From Natronorubrum sediminis (GTDB lineage: Archaea; Halobacteriota; Halobacteria; Halobacteriales; Natrialbaceae), in the NCBI RefSeq assembly GCF_900108095.1, contig NZ_FNWL01000001.1, positions 186,001 through 250,000 on the forward strand: a DNA stretch of 64,000 bases, read 5' to 3'. Position numbers and translations under genes: made by a program. Below, piece by piece: positions 23,395-59,251 of this stretch (positions are counted from its first letter, which is position 1; each line of letters begins with the position of its first letter). Under the pieces are notes generated by a model. It saw only the letters and a program-made list of their open reading frames with translations. It was not told where the DNA came from and ran no database searches.

Positions 23395-23653
23395 CGGTTC
23401 CGGTGAGTATCATCATCTATCATATACGTGTTCCCCGTTAAGATCTATTATAATTAGTATGGTGTATAATACCACTAGACCAATTTGCCACACTGGCAGC
23501 CACTACTTCTCGATTGAGCGCGACCGTTTTCGAGCGGGCCGAGCGATACCGCATTTCCATTCCCATTACAATCAACGGGTCGACATTTACTGAATTCGAC
23601 CGGCGAATCGGTGGGTATTCATCCGTCCGATGGTGACCCTTCGATGTAACGAA

Positions 23654-24874
23654 ATGTCGGTTCGAGAGACGGCTCAACGCATCACTCACTACGACGTCCT
23701 CCTGCTCGCGGCAACGATCTGGTTTCTCGGCAAGTTCCTCCGATATGCCTTTCCGCCGCTGTTCGACTCGTTTCAAATGAGCTATGGCGTCTCGAACGCC
23801 GTACTCGGTGCTTCCTACACCGGATTCATGCTCGTCTACGCCGCGATGCAGTTTCCCTCCGGCGTCCTCGCAGACCGATTCGGGTCGGTAATCGTCGTCA
23901 CCACTGGCGCGCTCGTCGCTGGTGTCGCCGCGCTCATCCTCGTCGTCGACTCGCCGTTTCTCGTCCTCGTCGTCGCGATGCTCATCATGGGTGCTGGAAC
24001 CGGCGCGCACAAGACCGTCGCCGTTCGGCTCCTCTCTCGAGCCTATCCCGCTCGGACAGGTTGAGCCCTCGGGATCCTCGATACGTTCGGTGCGTTCGGT
24101 GGCGTGGTCGCTCCGGCAGCGGTCGTCGCCGTTGCAGGTGTTTCGTTCGCACTCGGCGACAGTTGGCGAATGATCTTCTTCGTCGCTGGGCTGACAGCGC
24201 TCGCTCTCGCGGTCGCCTTTCGCGTTCGAGTTCCCAAGCGCGTTCCCGGTGAAACTCACGGCGACACCGCGACGAGCGCGATTTCCGCCGGCAACATCTC
24301 ACAGTACGCGTCACTCTTTCGCGACTGGCGGTTTGCCGTCTTCGCCCTTCTAACGGTCTTGTTCTCGTTTACGTACAACGGCTTCGTCGCGTTCGCACCG
24401 CTGTATCTCACGCAGGAAGCCGGACTGAGCGAGGCGGCCGCGGGATTGCTCTACAGCGTGCTCTTCCTGGCGAGTCTGGTCCAACTCGTGACCGGCGACC
24501 TCAGCGACCGTCTCGGGAAGCTTCCGATCATCGTCTTCTTGCTCGGACTCGCTTCGATCGCACTGATCGCGTTCATCTCCCTGACCGACTCTGCCGGCCC
24601 CGTCGTCCTCGGTGCCACGCTCGTCGCTGTCGGCATCGGCTCGCACGGCTTTCGACCCGTTAGAGGGGCATACTTGATGGCCGTCATTCCGGACGACGTC
24701 GCCGGTGGCGGACTCGGTGTCGTCCGAACACTGTTGATGGCCGCCGGTGCCGTCTCGCCAGCCATCGTCGGCACCCTTTCAGAGGTCGTCGGCTTTCAGC
24801 CCGCATTCGGGGTACTCGCCGCGTCGATCATTGCTGCAACCGTGTTGAGCGTGTTTCTTTGGGTTCTCGAATAA
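23654..24874 (+). pseudogene. MFS transporter interrupted by an in-frame TGA
   Basis: The frame reads a complete MFS permease of about 406 codons. A stop TGA at 24062-24064 splits it after about residue 136. The two halves are in the same frame and continue directly: the first ends AVRLLSRAYPARTG, and the second begins ALGILDTFGAFGGVVAP. The first half carries the motif A region YAAMQFPSGVLADRFGS, and the second has a central loop and six more membrane segments. A single substitution explains it (for example CGA or GGA to TGA). Either the gene is recently broken, or there is a sequencing error. Its substrate is unknown. Confidence 0.8.
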
Positions 24875-25164: not shown

Positions 25165-28100
25165 CTATCGTCCGAGGAGGGCGATTGCGAGGAGAAGCAC
25201 GATTCCGAGCGCGAGGGCAACACCACCGACTGTCGGCTCGCCGATAGCCGCGAGTGCGCCACCGGCGACGAGACCGGCCCCACCGGCACCAGCAGCGGTC
25301 GAAGCGACGAGACCCGAGGCGCCATCCGACCTCGCCTCGCTCGAGGGCTGTCGCTGGGCCTCCTGTTGGTCGCGCAGTTCCTCGAGTGCATCTCGAAGCT
25401 CCTCGAAGGCCGCATCGCGGTCGTTCGCAGCAGTCTGACCCGTGTTCGCTTCGCGTTCAGCGTCTGCATCCTCCAGGCTCTCGAGGTTGGCCATCACTGC
25501 CTCGATCCGAGAGTCTTGGTCGGCGAGGCGACGACCCTGATCGTCGACCGTTGCCGTTGTCTCCTCGAGACGCTCGTCGTGGCTACTCGTCTGCTCTTCG
25601 AGTTTGCCAAACCGGCTTTCGAGTCGGTCGACTCGGTCCGCGACGTCGACCACCGTGTTTTCGACGCCGTCGATGCGAGCGCCGTGATCAGTTCCGGCAT
25701 CCGCGTCTTGGAGTGACGAGAGTTCAGTTCCGAGCGACTCGAGTTCCGCCTCGAGCGCCTCGACGGTTTCGTTGGATACCGTAGAGTCCGTCGAAGCGGT
25801 CGTTTCCTCGAGCGTGCGAACGACTGCGTCCAATTCCTCGACCTCGCTTTCGAGCGTTGCAGTCGTTTCGGAGACCGTCTCGAGTCCGGTTTCGATCTCG
25901 TTCGAGTCCGTCTCGAGCGAATCGAAACGAGCATCGAACTCGTCCGATCGGTCGTCGAGTGCCGTCTCGAGGTCCGCGAGCGCGTTCTCGAACTCGGCCT
26001 CGAGTTCGTCCAGTCGGGCCGTGAGGTCCGCTTCGACACGCTCGGCCTCGACCGACCCTGCCTCGAGTTCGTCGATCGCCTCTCGAAGCGACTCGAGACG
26101 GTTCTCTACACCGCCCACGCGCTCGTCGATTGTACTGTCGACTTCCTCGATCTCAGACGTGACTGCTTGCACGTCGGTCTCGAGCGTTTCGACGGTCGAT
26201 TCGACCGTGTCGACGTTCGCCGCGACCGTTTCGATGTCCGCTACGGCCGTGTCGACATCTGCTTCGATCCCGTCGACCTCGTCGCTGGCAGTCTGTACGT
26301 CCGCCGAGACGGACTCGATGTCGGTCTCGAGTGCAGAGACGCTGTTTTCGACGGCCTCGACACGGTCGTCCGTCGCACGCTGGTTCTCGTCGAGACGCTC
26401 GGTCATCGTCGCGGTCGTCTCGAGGTCGTCGTCGAGGGTTTCGACTCGATCGTCGACCGAATCCAGTTCGTCCGCGAGTGCGTCTCGAGTCGTCTCGAGC
26501 GCTTCGGTCAACGCGTCCAGGTCATCTTCGAGTCGTTCACGTTCGGCAGTCGCCTGCTCGAGACTGTTGTCGAGTTGCGCCGAAACCTCGGCGAGTTCCT
26601 CGTCTTGCTCGTCGAGGCGATCACCGAGAGTCGCTGTCCGTGTCTCGAGTGTCTGGACGGTCTCGTCGACTCGTTCGAGCGAGTCGCGTTCGGTTTCGAG
26701 GGCCGTCTCGAGGGCCTCGATGTCTGTTTCGAGTGCCGATTCGATGTCCGTGAGTGTGCCCTCGAGGGCCTCGATCGTTGCTGAAAGCGAGTCGTGTTCC
26801 GCCTCGAAGTCGGCCTCGAGCGTCTCGAGGGTGTCCGACACCGACGCGAGTTCGTCGTTCGTCTCGGCTGTAAACTCCGCGAGCGAGTCGGCACTGGCGA
26901 ACGTCTCGCTTCTGGCCTCGAGGTCGCGAACGTCCGCCCTAACCGTCTCCAGTTCGTCGCCGAGTTCGCCGACGGATTCGGCCGTTGCGGCCCGTTCCTC
27001 GAGCGCCGAGAGCTCCTCGAGTGCAGTCTCGAGGTCGGCTTCGAGCGTCTGAATCTCCTCGTCGCGGTTGGCGAGTCGGTCGAAGAGTTGGTCGATCGCG
27101 TCGTTCGCTCGCTCGTGCTCCGAGCGTCCGCCGCTCCCGGTTGATTCGTCGAACGAGAGCGTCGTCTGTCCGTCGTCACCGGAGAGCGTTGTCGGTTGAG
27201 TCGTGGTCGCTGCGTCGCCAGCGTCGTCGGCATCCGCCCCCGGCCAGACGATATCCTCGTAGGAGTCGACGTCGTCTCTGGCGGCTGCGAGAGCCCCTCT
27301 GGTCGCACTCTCACTCGGCTCGTCGGCGAGTCGCACGTCCCGAACTGAAAACGGCAACGGCGCTGCGTCGAAGCGCCCGCCGAGGAGGTACTCGAGTCCC
27401 TCGACAGCTCCTTCACCTGCGAGGGCCATCGAGATTCCCAGCCCCTGTTGGACGTCGCTCTCGGTCGCTTCCGCCTCGATCTCGTCGACAATTTCGCCGA
27501 TCAGGGCGTCGTAGGCCTGTGCGAGTGCACTCTCGACGTCGCCCGTCGCCGCGTCTGGCTCGAGTCGAAACCCCTCGAGGACGGTCGCGACGTGAGACGG
27601 TTCGACCCCGCATGCTGTCGCTGCTCGATCGACGACCCAGTCGCTCCCCTTGGCGAGTGAGAACGCCAGCGCGGGGACGCCGTAGTACGCGAGCGTGACG
27701 CTCGTCGTCTGCGTGCCCAGACAGAGACCGAGTCCGGTGTGGTTTTCATCGCGAAGTTGATCGTAGACGACGGCGAACCCGCGGCTGATCGGCGTCGCAT
27801 CGATGTCGCGCTCGGTGAACGCCGCGTCGACGGCCGCTCGGTGAGCCTCGGTCGGTTCGGAAACGTCGACGAGCCGTCCTGGCGTGGTATAGCACAGTCG
27901 CTCGACCTCGTTCCCGTCGGCGTCGATTAGTTCGTCGACGAGCGCGGCGAGAGCCGACTCGGCGTACGCGTCGACGGTGAGAACGCCGTTCGAGAACAAC
28001 GATTTCGGCGCGCCCTCACCGCTCGTCGTGGCCGATATCGCAGCCGACCCCACCGCGTACGTCGCCTCCCCCTCTTCGATGAGCACCGTTCCTCCCGACG

Positions 28101-28230
28101 TGTCGAGTTGCTCTTCGAGTGCCCCCTCGTCGTCAGCAACGACGAACGGCGGAACCGAGTCGACCGTCCCCTCCCCCTTGCCGGAAGCCACCCTGAGGCC
28201 CTCCGGTCCGATATCGAGACCGTATTCCAT
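25165..28230 (-). CDS. Actin-like ATPase fused to a long coiled coil and membrane anchor
   Basis: The 1021-residue protein has three parts. Residues 1-330 look like an ASKHA (actin/FtsA/MreB) fold: phosphate 1 YGLDIGPEGLRVA (about 3-15), phosphate 2 LGLCLGTQTTSVTLAYYG (about 167-184) followed by GSDWVVDRAA, and an adenosine motif, SMALAGEGAVEGLEYLLGG (about 267-285). A Thr/Gly/Asp linker follows. Residues about 375-935 are a near-continuous coiled coil of Leu, Glu, Thr and Asp heptads. The end (about 978-1020) is hydrophobic (AAGAGGAGLVAGG, VALALGIVLLLAIALLG) and predicts a membrane anchor. I chose the ATG at 28230 because the phosphate-1 strand starts there. A structural role in shape, division or chromosome handling is inference. 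Haloarchaeal actins salactin and volactin exist, but whether this is one of them needs alignment. Confidence 0.8.
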   Translation of the reverse strand: MEYGLDIGPEGLRVASGKGEGTVDSVPPFVVADDEGALEEQLDTSGGTVLIEEGEATYAVGSAAISATTSGEGAPKSLFSNGVLTVDAYAESALAALVDELIDADGNEVERLCYTTPGRLVDVSEPTEAHRAAVDAAFTERDIDATPISRGFAVVYDQLRDENHTGLGLCLGTQTTSVTLAYYGVPALAFSLAKGSDWVVDRAATACGVEPSHVATVLEGFRLEPDAATGDVESALAQAYDALIGEIVDEIEAEATESDVQQGLGISMALAGEGAVEGLEYLLGGRFDAAPLPFSVRDVRLADEPSESATRGALAAARDDVDSYEDIVWPGADADDAGDAATTTQPTTLSGDDGQTTLSFDESTGSGGRSEHERANDAIDQLFDRLANRDEEIQTLEADLETALEELSALEERAATAESVGELGDELETVRADVRDLEARSETFASADSLAEFTAETNDELASVSDTLETLEADFEAEHDSLSATIEALEGTLTDIESALETDIEALETALETERDSLERVDETVQTLETRTATLGDRLDEQDEELAEVSAQLDNSLEQATAERERLEDDLDALTEALETTRDALADELDSVDDRVETLDDDLETTATMTERLDENQRATDDRVEAVENSVSALETDIESVSADVQTASDEVDGIEADVDTAVADIETVAANVDTVESTVETLETDVQAVTSEIEEVDSTIDERVGGVENRLESLREAIDELEAGSVEAERVEADLTARLDELEAEFENALADLETALDDRSDEFDARFDSLETDSNEIETGLETVSETTATLESEVEELDAVVRTLEETTASTDSTVSNETVEALEAELESLGTELSSLQDADAGTDHGARIDGVENTVVDVADRVDRLESRFGKLEEQTSSHDERLEETTATVDDQGRRLADQDSRIEAVMANLESLEDADAEREANTGQTAANDRDAAFEELRDALEELRDQQEAQRQPSSEARSDGASGLVASTAAGAGGAGLVAGGALAAIGEPTVGGVALALGIVLLLAIALLGR

Positions 28231-28349
28231 GTCACCGCTGAGTCGGAGCGACCTCTTTGAGCTTTGGCCCCGAGTACCAGATATGAAAACCAGCGCGAAC
28301 GGCGCTGGCACGCAGGATACTTTTGGCCCTTCTCGGCGACGACACGTGT

Positions 28350-53137: not shown

Positions 53138-53224
53138 ACGGTGGGGATGGGATTTGAACCCATGAGGCTTGACAGCCACCTGCTCTCAAGGCAGGCGCGT
53201 TGGGCCGCTCTGCCACCCCACCTC
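53138..53224. repeat. Left attachment-site repeat (full tRNA-Ser copy)
   Basis: 87 bases identical to 59165-59251. It includes one base before the tRNA 3' end and two beyond the 5' end. The crossover point inside cannot be seen. Confidence 0.85.
53139..53222 (-). tRNA. tRNA-Ser (anticodon TGA), left copy
   Basis: 84 nt on the minus strand, with GGTGGGG/CCCCACC and discriminator G. The anticodon stem CCTGC/GCAGG encloses loop CTTGAGA, giving TGA. A long variable arm, as in all serine tRNAs, and T-loop TTCAAAT are present. It is identical to the right copy. Its 5' side borders the element, so its promoter there is element DNA and it may or may not be expressed. Confidence 0.93.
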
Positions 53225-53357
53225 GAAGGCTTCGGCTGCCCCCTTCACGTCATGCGATTTCAGCGCCTTCAATGGTGAAACTGATGAAACTGACACGTTC
53301 CATCGTTCCTCGATTGAACCGCGCCGAAACCGCTGAAATCGACTTCATTGAGGGACT

Positions 53358-54458
53358 ATGAGTATGGACAAACCCGAGAAGGTTGAAGGTATCGTTCTTA
53401 TTCCCGGTCCGTCACGTGATATCCTCAACGAGCGTCAATTGGTTGCGTACGAGAGCTATCGACGGAGGCTCATCAAGTGGCTCGCACGACAAGGAAAGAA
53501 TCCGGACGCGCTCGAAGGCTATGCTCACGACACTGCACGGAACTATGCGAGCATCATCGACAAGTTTCATCGACAAGTCTGGCAACAGGATGGATACACG
53601 CTCGATCTTGGACACGAGACTGCTGAAGACTACCTACGCTCTTTGATTATGAGTGATGACGGATATTCACGGTCACACCTCCACAACGTGAAATTGGCGC
53701 TCATAGCCTATTTCCGGTTCAATGGCGACGAGTGGGAACCTGACATCACTATCAAATCATCTTCAGGCGTCTCTCAACCACGGGATTTCCTTTCCGGCGA
53801 GGAACGAACAGCACTCCGTGAAGCTGCGCTCGAATACGGGACCGTCCCCGCATACGCTGCTCTTGATCCCGATGAGCGGACAGAGTGGAAACGATTCCTC
53901 GCTCGCCGCTATGGAAAATCTGTATCCAAGGTGTCCAAAGAGGATTGGGACCGTGCTAACGGTTTCAAATATCCGAGTATCATCCACACGGCATTGGACG
54001 CTGGTCTTCGTCCCATCGAAGTAGGCCGTGCTCGGACCTATTGGGTAGACGTAGAAAATTCTACGCTCCGTATTCCTGAAGAGGAGTCCTCGAAAAACAA
54101 CGACAATTGGACGGTGAGTCTTCGACGCGAGACAACTGAATATCTTGCCCGCTGGCTCGAAGAGCGAGAGATGTACGACAAATACGATGATACTGATCGG
54201 CTGTGGTTGACGCGTCACTCGAATCCCTACAGTGGATCATCACTACGCTATGTCCTCGATGCCACTTGTAACATTGCGGGTATCGATCGGGACATATCGT
54301 GGTATGCAATTCGACATTGGACGGGCACCTATATGGCACGCGAAGAGGGACTCGCTGCTGCGCAGTCTCAACTTCGTCACAAGAGCATCGAGACAACTGC
54401 CAAGTACGACCAAGCCCCGGTAGATGATCGGCGGGATGCGCTTGATAGAATGGGCTGA
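53358..54458 (+). CDS. Tyrosine recombinase/integrase
   Basis: The 366-residue protein has an N-terminal SAM-like DNA-binding domain (RRRLIKWLARQGKNPDALEG, then YASIIDKFHRQVW). The catalytic domain has the first Arg in DAGLRPIEVGRARTY, the second in WYAIRHWTGTYM (R and the following H), and the nucleophile Tyr in LRHKSIETTAKYDQAP. The first His of the HxxR box is replaced by Tyr, which is common in archaeal plasmid integrases. It begins 136 bp inside the left repeat and reads away from it, as expected for the element's own integrase. A start two codons later is possible. Confidence 0.93.
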   Translation: MSMDKPEKVEGIVLIPGPSRDILNERQLVAYESYRRRLIKWLARQGKNPDALEGYAHDTARNYASIIDKFHRQVWQQDGYTLDLGHETAEDYLRSLIMSDDGYSRSHLHNVKLALIAYFRFNGDEWEPDITIKSSSGVSQPRDFLSGEERTALREAALEYGTVPAYAALDPDERTEWKRFLARRYGKSVSKVSKEDWDRANGFKYPSIIHTALDAGLRPIEVGRARTYWVDVENSTLRIPEEESSKNNDNWTVSLRRETTEYLARWLEEREMYDKYDDTDRLWLTRHSNPYSGSSLRYVLDATCNIAGIDRDISWYAIRHWTGTYMAREEGLAAAQSQLRHKSIETTAKYDQAPVDDRRDALDRMG

Positions 54459-54527
54459 ACAATCCACTCATCAGTATTTTTCTTCTTGGCAGAAAGTATA
54501 TCCAGCTACCATTTGAAAAACTACTCA

Positions 54528-55127
54528 ATGTCGATGGACTTCCCGTCATTGATAGACGAGTATGAGAACGCGAATCCCGGCGAATCCGTAGAGTACAAGG
54601 ATGATTCGGGTTCATGGCAGGATGATACAGATTACGGATTCGGGTCTATATCTTCGGAATTTCAAAGGCGGGGGCACATATCTCGGCCTGAACTTCGAAA
54701 GATTGGTGAGTGGAAATATCCTACTGGTCGAATTGATCAATACCTAAAAAATAATAATTCAACTTACGTAGAACAGCGAAGTGCTGTAGCGTTTCAAACA
54801 AGCTCAGATGTAGAGAAAATAGAAGCGCTAACGGAACTCAGGGGGATTCGAGTTCCTCTGGCATCGGTTATTCTAACCATGTTTAATCCAGCTGATTATG
54901 CCATTGTAGACTACCATACCTTCCGCGCTCTTGGGGCAGAATTATTAGATCTTCAGAACTATCCCGATTACGCTGAATTTATGGGATATTTTCAGAACTA
55001 CAATTCAGACCCGGAAGCATATAGCATCTATATGGACGTAGTTCGAGACGTTGCACAGCAAGAGGGGATACTCCCAAGGGAAGTAGATATGGCTCTTTGG
55101 GCCCATGATAAGATAGAATCCTCGTAG
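54528..55127 (+). CDS. HhH-type protein of unknown function in the element
   Basis: The 199-residue protein has a helix-hairpin-helix-like segment, ALTELRGIRVPLASVILTMF, directly followed by NPADYAIVDYHTFRALGAEL. This resembles the HhH-GPD core of base-excision glycosylases, with the Asp in VDYHT as the possible catalytic residue. The usual glycosylase Lys is absent. Similar proteins occur in mobile and defence loci. I chose ATG 54528 over a TTG upstream; ATG 54534 is also possible. It follows the integrase by 69 bp. Confidence 0.6.
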   Translation: MSMDFPSLIDEYENANPGESVEYKDDSGSWQDDTDYGFGSISSEFQRRGHISRPELRKIGEWKYPTGRIDQYLKNNNSTYVEQRSAVAFQTSSDVEKIEALTELRGIRVPLASVILTMFNPADYAIVDYHTFRALGAELLDLQNYPDYAEFMGYFQNYNSDPEAYSIYMDVVRDVAQQEGILPREVDMALWAHDKIESS

Positions 55128-55132
55128 ATCAC

Positions 55133-55287
55133 TCAAATTTCAGGTCGATAGATTTCGTGTCCCTCCTGAGTCAACGGTGGAATATCCAAGGCAACATAGT
55201 GAGCTCCAATCAACTCAACCTCAATCTCCCTAAGCTTCCGTTCTGAATCCACATCTGCTGGTGGTTATACATATCAAGTGCTGTCAT
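55133..55287 (-). pseudogene. Possible broken small gene (frameshifted), about 50 codons
   Basis: On the minus strand a 43-codon frame (55133-55264) reads PPADVDSERKLREIEVELIG and continues HYVALDIPPLTQEGHEIYRP, coding-like text with no start and bounded by TAA at its 5' side. Just upstream, in another frame, an ATG at 55287 reads MTALDMY. A single inserted or lost base would join them into one protein of about 50 residues. The remaining spacer to 55551 is AT-rich with no gene I can see. Confidence 0.35.
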
Positions 55288-55551
55288 AGTTGACCATCAT
55301 TATTCTTAGTACATAGAACCGACTGGTGATCAACTCTATTTCGGTGATATCACTCTTAACCGATAATACTCGTATTATCCACGGCTTGAATCGCAGAAAT
55401 TATTCAGCCGATCGCCTTCTTTCTTCGATAAGACCGATACACCCCATCGAAGCCTCTGAACGGTATTAGCGGTGAAAATTCGGGAAAGATGCTCCCTGTC
55501 AAGAGTTATTTCCCGATTCCTCGGTGAGGGTGTCGCGGTCAGATTACGACG

Positions 55552-56615
55552 ATGAAAACTACGGAACACAATCACAAGAATATATCGAACTATTCAGAGA
55601 AAAACAGACTGAAAACTATTTCCGATCGGATTGAAGAAATAGGACTTGAATCGAATCGGTTTATTCGACTTCAAGATGGATCGAAAGCTCCTATCTCACA
55701 CGAGGAGTTATGTTGGGAGAAGATAGGAGAGGGAAATTATGGTGTATATGCCGGAAACGGGCTTGTTCTCGTTGATATTGACTCATATCGGAGCGATAGT
55801 GGTGACCTTCCTAAAGAAGTCCAGAAGCTCCGAAGCACCCTCACAATCACCTTCCGAATTACTTCTGAAGGCCGTGAATTGGACGTGAATCGCTCTTTAC
55901 CTACATTTATAGTTCAGTCCCCACATGGAGGAGAACACCTATATTATGCCGTGTCAGATGATGTGGAAAATTCTACTCATGAGTGGGGAGAAATGCGAGC
56001 AGAAAATCAGTATGTCGTGGGTCCCGGTTCTGAACTCACTAATTGCGATAAGGATTGGCATGACTGTTCACAGCCGGATGAAGGTTACTACGCTATCAAG
56101 CATAACTACCCAGTCAGATCAATTTCAGCATCAGAATTGCCAACGAAGCAAGACACTGATCGGAATCCGGAGACAATGTCCAATGAGGGTGCGATTTCCG
56201 AGGAAGATCCTCAATATGCCGAAATAGATGTTGAGGTAGCAAATCAGCACCTCAAACCTTCCAAGCGGAGAGTGGAAGCGCGTTTTATTGCCTCATGGAC
56301 CGACTGAACGGTGGAAGAGGAAAACTAAGTGGAAAAGTTACCCGTGACGATGGAACGATTAATCGGAGTGCCATAGATTTCCTCACTCTTTCACATTTGT
56401 TTGGAGTGATGGTGAAGTTCGGAAATGAAGACAAAGAAAGAGCAAGAGAACTATCCTACGCAGTCTACAGTCACTTCGCAGAACAAAAACCCTATGTCAA
56501 GGACAAAACCGGACGTAGAAGGAAGTGGCTATTGAGAGATGAGAAGTACCGTCAAGATCGGCTCGCATATGCAGTAACGGAGTTCGACCGAGGAAATCAC
56601 CTTCCAAGGCCATGA
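55552..56615 (+). pseudogene. Primase-polymerase (prim-pol) gene with a -1 frameshift
   Basis: The first frame (55552-56307) is a prim-pol domain: LQDGSKAPISHEELCWEKIG, NYGVYAGNGLVLVDIDSYRS with the metal DxD, FIVQSPHGGEHLYYAV, and ENQYVVGPGSEL. It stops at 56305-56307, just after a shared stretch. The -1 frame is open upstream of 56295 and reads SGSAFYCLMDRLNGGRGKLS, continuing to 56615 as a helicase/primase C-terminal segment (ERARELSYAVYSHFAEQ). Joined, they give a protein of about 354 residues, the usual layout of haloarchaeal plasmid and virus primases. The break could be decay, a sequencing error, or programmed frameshifting. It would copy the element's DNA. Confidence 0.65.
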
Positions 56616-56939
56616 TGAAGCCGATGTTCGGGCAGCTGTGGTGGAGTGAAATAAGTTTGTAAACCAATATAATTAGTGCTCATAAAAGGAGTAGTCACAC
56701 TATCAGATTTGTTGACTATTGTCTAATATTTCTCTTCAGACGCTGAGATTGGACTGTTAGTGGATTATAGTTTTATATAGTAAGGAGGAGGTTAGATAGT
56801 TGAAGTTGACTCTCCCTCTATCTCAATATCTTTTAATTTGATCCAATCAAATTCCATTTTCATCTTGAGAAGTTCGGGTGTGTTTTAAATACTTTAAAGG
56901 TATCCGGTGTTAATTTCCGATTCTTACTGTAGAACGTAA
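56616..56939. other. AT-rich gap between convergent genes
   Basis: No gene is evident. T-runs occur in both directions (for example at 56828-56836), which would fit terminators of the converging transcripts. A replication origin is possible but no clear iteron or inverted-repeat array is seen. Confidence 0.35.
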
Positions 56940-57902
56940 TCATAGGATTATATCGTCTTCAACAGCATATCTATAGACACTTTTGGTCAGAATAGTACTT
57001 GTGAGAGCACAATCAAGACTAACTTCAGGAGTTATTTCCCATCTTTCCAAGGCTTCAGCATCATCACCGTGAGCACCACCTTTATTCCGGATCTCCGCAA
57101 GAGCCATAATGCGTCTTTTGTGATGACGCCTCACCAAGCCATCCCCCTGTAGATGATTACAGAGGGGTACAATTCCGGAACCGGTTGAATAATCTCGCCC
57201 TTCATCCCCATATGTTTCTCCGAGGTTTCGAAGGAAGTCTTCAAAGGCTCTACCAGATGCGCTAACAGAATCACGAGGCTCTGTTGAATGCTTTAGATAT
57301 GCATCAGCCAAATCAGTTTTTGTATCTTGGTCAAGAAACTCCATTAAATTCTCTCCAAGGAACTCATCAAGATATATTTTGACTTCTAACTCTGATTTGA
57401 GTGACTTTCGCAGACTTTCTAATGAACCAGACATATCTGCAGGGACGTTTCGAATTTCGACTGACAGTTCGTCCCCTTCTAAAACAATTCCTGTATATTT
57501 CCCCATTAGTTCAAAATATTCCTTAAGATAATCCGGTTTGCTTGCAAGTTCGCTGTTTCCTGCATAGACTTTCTGAGCGGCTTCTTCTGAAGTGTAACCT
57601 CTATTTAAATAAGTAGAATAATCAATAAATGGCTGATAATTTAGTAATGATTTTTCTAATATAATCGACCAATCTTTTGGTGCCGTTTGCTGTAGTAACC
57701 TTTCATATCTATCCTCTACTTTATTATCTCCCTTATCAATAATACCAATTGTTTCAAGTATTTTAATTGCTTCTCTTACTTTGCGATTTGAGAGGTTAGC
57801 AAAGCGGGATATTTCATCATTTGATGGATTGGGGCCTAATTCAGATATTGCAAAAAGCACTTCAAGAATATCTTCCGGTAATACTCTATATGCGGGAAAC
57901 AT
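56940..57902 (-). CDS. Abi_C/HEPN-like protein with N-terminal winged helix
   Basis: The 320-residue protein begins with a winged-helix region (PEDILEVLFAISELGPNPSN then DEISRFANLSNRKVREAIKI). The C-terminal 60 residues carry LAEIRNKGGAHGDDAEALER, an R-x5-H motif (Arg272, His278) followed by a hydrophobic helix (SLDCALTSTILTKSVYRYAV). That is the pattern of abortive-infection C-terminal (Abi_C) and HEPN RNase domains, which cut RNA. It is the second gene of a minus-strand pair, nine bases after the first. A defence or toxin role is inferred from motif and context. Confidence 0.6.
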   Translation of the reverse strand: MFPAYRVLPEDILEVLFAISELGPNPSNDEISRFANLSNRKVREAIKILETIGIIDKGDNKVEDRYERLLQQTAPKDWSIILEKSLLNYQPFIDYSTYLNRGYTSEEAAQKVYAGNSELASKPDYLKEYFELMGKYTGIVLEGDELSVEIRNVPADMSGSLESLRKSLKSELEVKIYLDEFLGENLMEFLDQDTKTDLADAYLKHSTEPRDSVSASGRAFEDFLRNLGETYGDEGRDYSTGSGIVPLCNHLQGDGLVRRHHKRRIMALAEIRNKGGAHGDDAEALERWEITPEVSLDCALTSTILTKSVYRYAVEDDIIL

Positions 57903-57911
57903 TTGGTTTTA

Positions 57912-58811
57912 CTATTTAGATTGTAGTTTTTCAATTAGGGCGATGACTGATTCACTTTCCCAATCTGATGATGAGATCTCAATATTGATTTGTAGATCAA
58001 TAGAACTGTCTTGTTCAATCTGCTCCGAAATTTCAATCAGATCTGTATTAGGATCCTGCTCAGGTTTCTTAATTGATGGTTCTGCTACAACATCCTCTTC
58101 AAAACTAACCTCTTTATCCTGTTTAGTTTCTTCCTCTTCTTTGGCCTCCTTTTGCTGAATGATTTCTGTAGCACTATCCTCCAAGGTAGGCTGTTCAATT
58201 TCTGCCCTATCTTCGCTCCCCTCCGCGGGGTTCTCATCGAGATCCTGATCTACTTCCTGTTGGATGTTTAATAGACTCTCTTGGACTTCTAAACGAGTCG
58301 GGTTACCACCTCTGCCAACTACATAATTCCCATAACCTGCTGCCTCTAATGTCTTCAAAAAGACATTGGTTGCTGGCTTGAGTGTACTATCTGTACTAAG
58401 TTCTGAAAAGCCAAAATTTCTATTCAAATGGGGCAAAATCTGTTTCTGAGTAATTGTGTTTTCCATTCGTTCTTCTACCAAGCCATCATCAATTACTAAT
58501 TCTAAAAGATCTGAGTATAGAGAATGTTCCTGAACCCCCTTTCTAAATTCTTCTTCAAGAGTATCATCAATTTCATCAGTAAATGCAGCCTCCCAACCTC
58601 GGTCTGTGAGTTTATATTTTCCTTCTTCAGATTCAGAAATGAACCCTAACCTATCCCCATATTTTATAACTTCAGAAACAACTCCTTTTGATAAACCAAT
58701 ATCCTCATCTTCTGCGAGATTGTCTATCGATCTTGCACCATCATTCAGACCCTCACAAACGAATAATAAATTCTTAGGTGAGGAATCGGTTGTCGGGTTC
58801 TCGTATGACAT
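57912..58811 (-). CDS. Winged-helix, DUF5343-like partner protein
   Basis: The 299-residue protein has an N-terminal winged-helix part (NLLFVCEGLNDGARSIDNLA then SEVIKYGDRLGFISESEEGK), a middle helical region and a long acidic Glu-rich linker (about 190-255). A C-terminal strand-helix follows (SSIDLQINIEISSSDWESES and VIALIEKLQ). The ending matches how DUF5343 proteins finish, with an INI-type strand before a final helix. In other microbes DUF5343 genes sit next to HEPN-type genes. It lies upstream of the Abi_C-like gene and likely controls or restrains it. Confidence 0.55.
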   Translation of the reverse strand: MSYENPTTDSSPKNLLFVCEGLNDGARSIDNLAEDEDIGLSKGVVSEVIKYGDRLGFISESEEGKYKLTDRGWEAAFTDEIDDTLEEEFRKGVQEHSLYSDLLELVIDDGLVEERMENTITQKQILPHLNRNFGFSELSTDSTLKPATNVFLKTLEAAGYGNYVVGRGGNPTRLEVQESLLNIQQEVDQDLDENPAEGSEDRAEIEQPTLEDSATEIIQQKEAKEEEETKQDKEVSFEEDVVAEPSIKKPEQDPNTDLIEISEQIEQDSSIDLQINIEISSSDWESESVIALIEKLQSK

Positions 58812-59165
58812 GACTTATGGAAATCACCCATATTAAATAGTATTTTCGAATTTCATGACAGTTCAGATATTTAATAATAGGCGCATATGAGAATAGGTCC
58901 ATATGACTATATGTTTAAAGGGTACTACAGGTGTTGTTCTACCTTCACTCCCTCGGAGCATCTATCATATTATGTTTTAAGGGCAGCTTGGCTTCCGGTC
59001 ATGAGACCGAGAAGGGTCACTATGGGTGAAATAGATATACTTTTGATGCCCTAAATTCCGTCCTGCGGTCTCAAGATAGTATCAATAGGAGTCTGATTCA
59101 CAAACCTATAATTTTATAACTATTAGTAAACTATTCTTCACGTAGAAGGTGCGAATCGGATGATA
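58812..59165. other. AT-rich end of the element before the right tRNA-Ser
   Basis: No gene is evident. It holds the promoter of the minus-strand pair, with A/T-rich blocks such as TTTAATAATA at 58870-58879. An inverted repeat CGGTC-ATGA-GACCG lies at 58996-59009. The right end borders the second tRNA-Ser repeat. Confidence 0.4.
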
Positions 59166-59251
59166 CGGTGGGGATGGGATTTGAACCCATGAGGCTTGAC
59201 AGCCACCTGCTCTCAAGGCAGGCGCGTTGGGCCGCTCTGCCACCCCACCTC
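59165..59251. repeat. Right attachment-site repeat (full tRNA-Ser copy)
   Basis: 87 bases identical to 53138-53224. Beyond it the chromosome resumes with the GT-A-like gene. Confidence 0.85.
59166..59249 (-). tRNA. tRNA-Ser (anticodon TGA), right copy
   Basis: 84 nt, identical to the left copy. Its 5' side borders chromosomal DNA, so this copy most likely keeps the original promoter and is the functional gene. Its 3' side faces the element. Confidence 0.95.

Follow-up and report, generated by a model that had tools for sequence, protein, structure and literature searches.

A volactin paralogue of Natrialbaceae joining an actin-fold head to a coiled-coil rod and a predicted membrane anchor

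We analyzed a 64,000-nucleotide window of the Natronorubrum sediminis genome, in which a gene on the minus strand (25165..28230) encodes a protein of 1021 amino acids plus stop, hereafter called long volactin. The open frame extends from 25165 to 28311 (minus strand, 1048 codons), and the conserved start is an internal ATG at 28230, which gives the 1021-residue product and agrees exactly with the extent originally predicted (25165-28230). The aligned ATG was common to 20/20 orthologues in the first set fetched from other genomes. Plus-strand frames overlapping the gene were not counted as genes. For five sister pairs, dN/dS of the head was about 0.25 in most and 0.50 in one, while values of 0.34-0.50 were obtained for linker and rod. 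Head and rod are under purifying selection, and with dN/dS of 0.25-0.5 long volactin is a real, constrained protein and not a spurious frame of a G+C-rich genome.

The neighboring genes encode an MFS transporter, a HAD hydrolase, a SHOCT protein, and a MOSC protein; an enoyl-CoA hydratase and an acyl-CoA synthetase were recognized by eye from the sequence as further neighbors. Gene order is partly common to relatives. At the long-volactin loci of these relatives, we found neither a cytoskeletal partner nor a conserved operon, no linkage to the gene for ordinary short volactin, and no adjoining envelope or pilus genes. The adjoining MFS transporter gene (23630-24874, plus strand) is in two pieces, with a single open frame of 446 codons at the locus of a close relative (L051), and is either a pseudogene or affected by a sequencing error. 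Elsewhere in the window, a low-G+C insert (53138-59251) is flanked by tRNA-Ser(TGA) in two identical copies of 87 bp. It carries an integrase gene (53358-54458) and a Prim-Pol gene (55552-56307) and is a small integrated element that duplicated the tRNA gene.

The N-terminal part of long volactin (residues 1-330; 27241..28230, minus strand) forms the head. Residues 1-317 match the Pfam family Volactin (PF25216) over the whole profile (profile positions 1-321; E 1.3e-120; 403 bits against a family cut-off of 35 bits). The AlphaFold2 model of the head, built with an alignment of 45 proteins from the window and the related loci, reached a pLDDT of 85.6 and a pTM of 0.84. A Foldseek search against the PDB returned the MamK filament 5ljv as top match (E 5e-13, TM 0.63/0.69), followed by MreB, BeeR, ParM, PilM, FtsA, and actins. 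In total, 458 PDB chains matched at E ≤ 0.001, and the best 50 of these 458 were nearly all of the actin fold. On the level of sequence, no actin was recovered from the PDB with a profile of long heads only, and a profile of short volactins gave weak matches to FtsA and MreB. Profile match and model together provide good support for assigning the head to the actin fold and to the known volactin family. The ASKHA/actin fold expected for the N-terminal ~330 residues was therefore borne out by AlphaFold2 and Foldseek, with MreB and FtsA, two of the proteins named for comparison in the original prediction, among the matches. A new ASKHA family was ruled out by the membership in PF25216. In two Natronorubrum relatives (L056 and L057), the long heads are shorter by about 35 residues around positions 37-74, a stretch that other long heads have.

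An acidic low-complexity linker (residues 331-375; 27106..27240, minus strand), modeled with low AlphaFold2 confidence, follows the head. Within this otherwise variable stretch, most orthologues carry an [ST]FD[DE] motif at about residues 359-362 (window about 27145-27156), which may be a docking peptide. The rod (residues 376-960; 25351..27105, minus strand) opens with a nearly invariant neck, DDAIDQLFDRLANRDEEI. The conserved block NDAIDQLFDRLANRDEEI lies within residues 376-395 (27046..27105, minus strand), and in 19 sequences A378, Q381, L382, F383, R385, L386, R389, and D390 were invariant. Hydrophobic periodicity of residues 376-960 peaks at 3.55 residues (z = 29 relative to shuffled sequence; z = 12, 21, and 6.5 for the three thirds), in agreement with the coiled coil of about 560 residues that had been predicted. 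It had also been called uninterrupted, which is nearly right: proline is absent from residues 347 to 961, but the full-length AlphaFold2 model, helical over residues 371-960 with moderate to low confidence, contains seven short breaks. If continuous, the rod would have a predicted length of about 87 nm (0.1485 nm per residue). Pfam and NCBIfam matches within the rod are generic coiled-coil cross-matches.

The C-terminus is formed by a hydrophobic pair (residues 978-1021; 25168..25299, minus strand), recognized by its hydropathy and by nine positions that are invariant among 15 aligned tails. The second segment (residues 1001-1019) has a mean hydropathy of 2.85 and is of the transmembrane type, whereas the Gly/Ala-rich segment ahead of it (residues 978-997), at about 1.45, is borderline for membrane crossing. 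AlphaFold2 places helices at residues 985-995 and 999-1020 with low confidence. The pair occurs in every complete orthologue and follows a pattern like AGGGGAGVVAGG..ALTG...GAxAVxLGLVLxxVAxxLxR. The hydropathy and conservation of the tail support a membrane-type segment, predicted to serve as anchor, as had been proposed. A search for the tail in other proteins of the same genome yielded no hit at E ≤ 10 and thus no partner protein with the same tail.

All 40 complete sequences that we compared comprise head, rod, and tail. The periodicity peak lies at 3.4-3.55 (z 7-46) in 40/40 sequences measured, and rod length ranges from 147 to 901 residues (median 663, n = 40, with some rod borders set by a default position), corresponding to about 22-134 nm if the rods are continuous; the orthologues measure 575-1313 amino acids in total. 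Over this range of rods, the three blocks of head, neck, and tail are kept constant while rod length varies freely. The N. sediminis genome contains two PF25216 genes, i.e., the long form and an ordinary short volactin (C1:64711-65673), which makes long volactin a divergent paralogue. An MreB-like match on contig 2 of the same genome was identified as DnaK. Our survey covered 293 Halobacteriales genomes (72 Natrialbaceae and 221 others). Short volactin was present in all 72 Natrialbaceae genomes, and the long form in 51 of them, in each case together with the short one. Scanning of species genomes revealed 30 long-form loci, all in Natrialbaceae (Natronorubrum, Natrinema, Haloterrigena, Natrialba, Halovivax, Halopiger, and others). 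A restriction to this family was nevertheless ruled out by divergent long forms in 5/221 other Halobacteriales genomes, which have 775-878 amino acids with head, coiled coil, and double hydrophobic end; these five (L118-L122) belong to two other families (f5 and f7). In Haloarcula and Natrinema, short volactin-like genes annotated as hypothetical protein are also found on large replicons filed as plasmids. Short volactin reaches families of the phylum outside Halobacteriales, for which reason we regard the single-domain protein as the widespread form. Sequences from outside the order are called methanogen-type here, an assumed label based on the phylum.

The head of N. sediminis long volactin is 29-33% identical to short volactins (about 31% to the short copy in its own genome) and 46-62% identical to non-sister long heads, whereas short volactins are 87-96% identical across families. 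Judged by these sequence identities, the head diverges faster in the long form than in short volactin. In the phylogenetic tree, a branch with support of 100/100 sets the Natrialbaceae long heads apart, and a 99/97 branch separates all long forms from all short ones. This topology is compatible with one old origin of the long form, with repeated fusion as the alternative; the order of events is unsure because of long branches.

To what extent the head has retained the residues of an active actin-type ATPase was judged by comparing long and short heads. The phosphate-1 region GLDIGP (residues 4-9; 28204..28221, minus strand) is largely intact, with Asp6 kept in 34/35 long heads. In the phosphate-2 region CLGTQTTSVTLAY (residues 170-182; 27685..27723, minus strand), Asp is replaced by Cys and the third Gly by Gln. 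The 35 long heads have Cys at the former position in 27 cases and Asp in one, short volactins have Ser, and the third Gly is Gln in most long heads. As the phosphate-2 Asp is missing from short and nearly all long forms, its loss is a trait of the family and not particular to the long form. The long form is set apart by the Glu that precedes Pro in MreB, which we take to be the catalytic (hydrolytic) residue. Glu152 of short volactin aligns with this Glu in two separate alignments, both starting from short volactin: with Geobacillus MreB (HMMER) and with E. coli MreB (hhalign). It is kept in 19/19 short heads (10/10 haloarchaeal and 9/9 methanogen-type) and in 0/35 Natrialbaceae long heads, which carry Lys (14), Arg (10), Thr (7), Ser (3), or Gln (1). 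In N. sediminis, the position is occupied by Arg150 (27781..27783, minus strand), an assignment based on the MreB alignments, the column counts, and the methanogen-type and f5/f7 sequences. The five divergent long heads outside Natrialbaceae have Arg or Pro. Short volactins from outside Halobacteriales read IDEG at this position, close to IEEP of MreB. When a mixed profile was compared with E. coli MreB by hhalign, the alignment was poor (probability 1%) and the register of the connect-1 region was shifted; the assignment of the Glu therefore relies on the short-volactin alignments and the IDEG motif of the methanogen-type sequences. The first Glu of ‘SEPINEG’ was also considered as the hydrolytic residue, but the MreB alignments and methanogen-type volactins lacking it favor the second; both are missing from Natrialbaceae long heads.

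From these replacements, the long head is predicted to be probably a weak or dead ATPase, which may bind nucleotide and should hydrolyze ATP poorly. Loss of a single Glu need not abolish hydrolysis. The original view of a nucleotide-switching ASKHA head with phosphate motifs is accordingly weakened: the phosphate-1 Asp is retained, but the phosphate-2 Asp is replaced and the MreB-type Glu is absent from all long heads examined. No fold other than ASKHA was found, and phosphate-motif residues are in part lost across homologues.

Tethering of cytoskeletal filaments to the membrane is known from RodZ, SepF, and FtsA-type proteins, in which the tether is short and consists of a separate protein or an amphipathic helix; long volactin differs in joining an actin-type head and a rod of almost 90 nm in one chain. 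Crenactin with arcadin-4 is an archaeal actin system that has a coiled-coil partner, as separate proteins, and the match of arcadin-4 to long volactin is through generic coiled coil only. The best structural matches of the long head, MamK and MreB, are single actin domains of 314-337 residues in the matched structures, unlike long volactin, and E. coli MreB has two residues that the long head lacks, Asp in phosphate-2 and Glu ahead of Pro. The closest known system is volactin itself (VolA, HVO_2015, PF25216), which shares family and fold with residues 1-317 (E 1.3e-120) but has one domain of about 325-360 amino acids (325-400 taken as the single-domain range) with the Glu kept, compared to 1021 amino acids with rod and tail and without the Glu in the long form. 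Volactin-GFP filaments in Haloferax are described as dynamic and spanning the cytoplasm, with membrane contact at the tips only, and low volactin as delaying the rod-to-disk change (PMC10869688). In Haloferax volcanii, volA is described as the sole actin homologue identified (PMC7617734). For hyphae-forming haloarchaea, two families of MreB-like proteins are reported, of which one has expanded and the other has been lost (PMC10067837). Salactin of Halobacterium is likewise a haloarchaeal actin homologue, nearest to MamK, but the text describing it mentions no coiled coil or transmembrane segment (PMC10746226). No description of a long volactin with rod and tail was found in the literature as far as accessible, a scope that excludes preprints and most subscription papers. 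Within that literature, the family of the head is already known, and a paralogue that combines rod, tail, and loss of the Glu is new. The architecture had been called unfamiliar and said to differ from plain MreB, FtsA, and the short haloarchaeal actins. The difference is confirmed, and the chain of head, rod, and tail is supported and conserved in relatives; its head, however, is a paralogue of the described volactin.

With the hydrolytic residue absent, a long rod, and a hydrophobic tail, the protein resembles an integral membrane tether for an actin cytoskeleton more than it does another actin of the ordinary kind. We consider it about an even chance (probability roughly 0.5) that long volactin is a volactin paralogue which became an actin-related adaptor, anchored in the membrane and capping, nucleating, or tethering the filaments of volactin. 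The rod would form a parallel dimer and hold two heads together far from the membrane. The heads would bind ATP, hydrolyze it poorly or not at all, and attach to dynamic filaments of ordinary volactin at their end or side; these filaments would then be capped, nucleated, or held at a distance set by the rod. This adaptor reading draws on the volactin family and actin fold of the head, its paralogy with the short volactin that accompanies it in all 51 Natrialbaceae genomes having it, the Glu kept in short heads and absent from long ones, the faster divergence of the head, and the presence of rod and tail, at freely varying rod length, in 40/40 complete sequences. In addition, membrane contact of filament tips, as described for Haloferax (PMC10869688), is what such a tether would be expected to provide. 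However, Haloferax volcanii anchors volactin tips to the membrane with volA described as its sole identified actin homologue (PMC7617734), so that tip anchoring as such does not require a long form. Further points weaken the adaptor reading: 21/72 Natrialbaceae genomes lack the long form, co-occurrence with short volactin says little as every Natrialbaceae genome has the latter, and the long form has neither a conserved partner in an operon nor linkage to the gene for volactin. At only 29-33% identity to short volactin, the head is not guaranteed to share its filament contacts, one lost Glu need not end hydrolysis, and the tail is modeled with low confidence, with a borderline first segment. 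Taken together, we regard cytoskeletal tethering by long volactin as a reasonable inference.

Other roles were weighed against the same evidence. The long heads could polymerize apart from volactin, with the coiled coil of each subunit leading to the membrane, which would result in a brush-like cortical filament. The actin fold is whole and keeps elements of the MamK/MreB type, and conservation extends to Asp6 of phosphate-1 and to a large part of the head, whose dN/dS is about 0.25 in most pairs. Assembly of actins can proceed on nucleotide binding without fast hydrolysis, and so could that of long heads. On the other hand, the hydrolytic Glu is gone from all of them, about 35 residues near positions 37-74 are deleted in two Natronorubrum orthologues, and the head diverges fast compared with short volactin, so that we deem filaments of its own unlikely, though worth considering.

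We see still less reason to expect a membrane-located ASKHA scaffold or sensor, similar to PilM, that forms no filaments, connects the cytoplasm with a structure of the envelope or surface, and is unrelated to volactin filaments. PilM and FtsA are among the structural matches, and ASKHA proteins with degenerate motifs can act as adaptors; but the sequence kinship is with volactin and not with PilM or FtsA, and the adjoining genes include none for envelope or pilus, making this role rather improbable. The tail, finally, might be an oligomerization zipper instead of a membrane anchor, and the protein a soluble cytoplasmic cross-linker of volactin filaments. The Gly/Ala-rich first tail segment, with its mean hydropathy of only ~1.45 and low AlphaFold2 confidence, fits such a zipper. 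The second segment, at 2.85 well over usual transmembrane cut-offs, and the recurrence of the double hydrophobic end in divergent long forms of other families speak against it, and we hold a soluble cross-linker to be very improbable.

Extending the adaptor reading, an archaeal actin could have given rise to its own dedicated actin-related protein, which caps or nucleates the parent filaments by means of a Glu-less head on a membrane-anchored rod tuned to the species; we offer this only tentatively, as a possibility that falls somewhat short of even odds. If true, long volactin would unite in a single chain what other cytoskeletons assign to separate actin-related nucleators and tethers. If it caps or tethers volactin, it would be an example from outside eukaryotes of an actin that yielded an actin-related regulator of its own. 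The archaeal actins form a small and little-studied group, and long volactin makes the question of contact between volactin and the membrane directly testable, with natural rods of 147-901 residues available for comparison.
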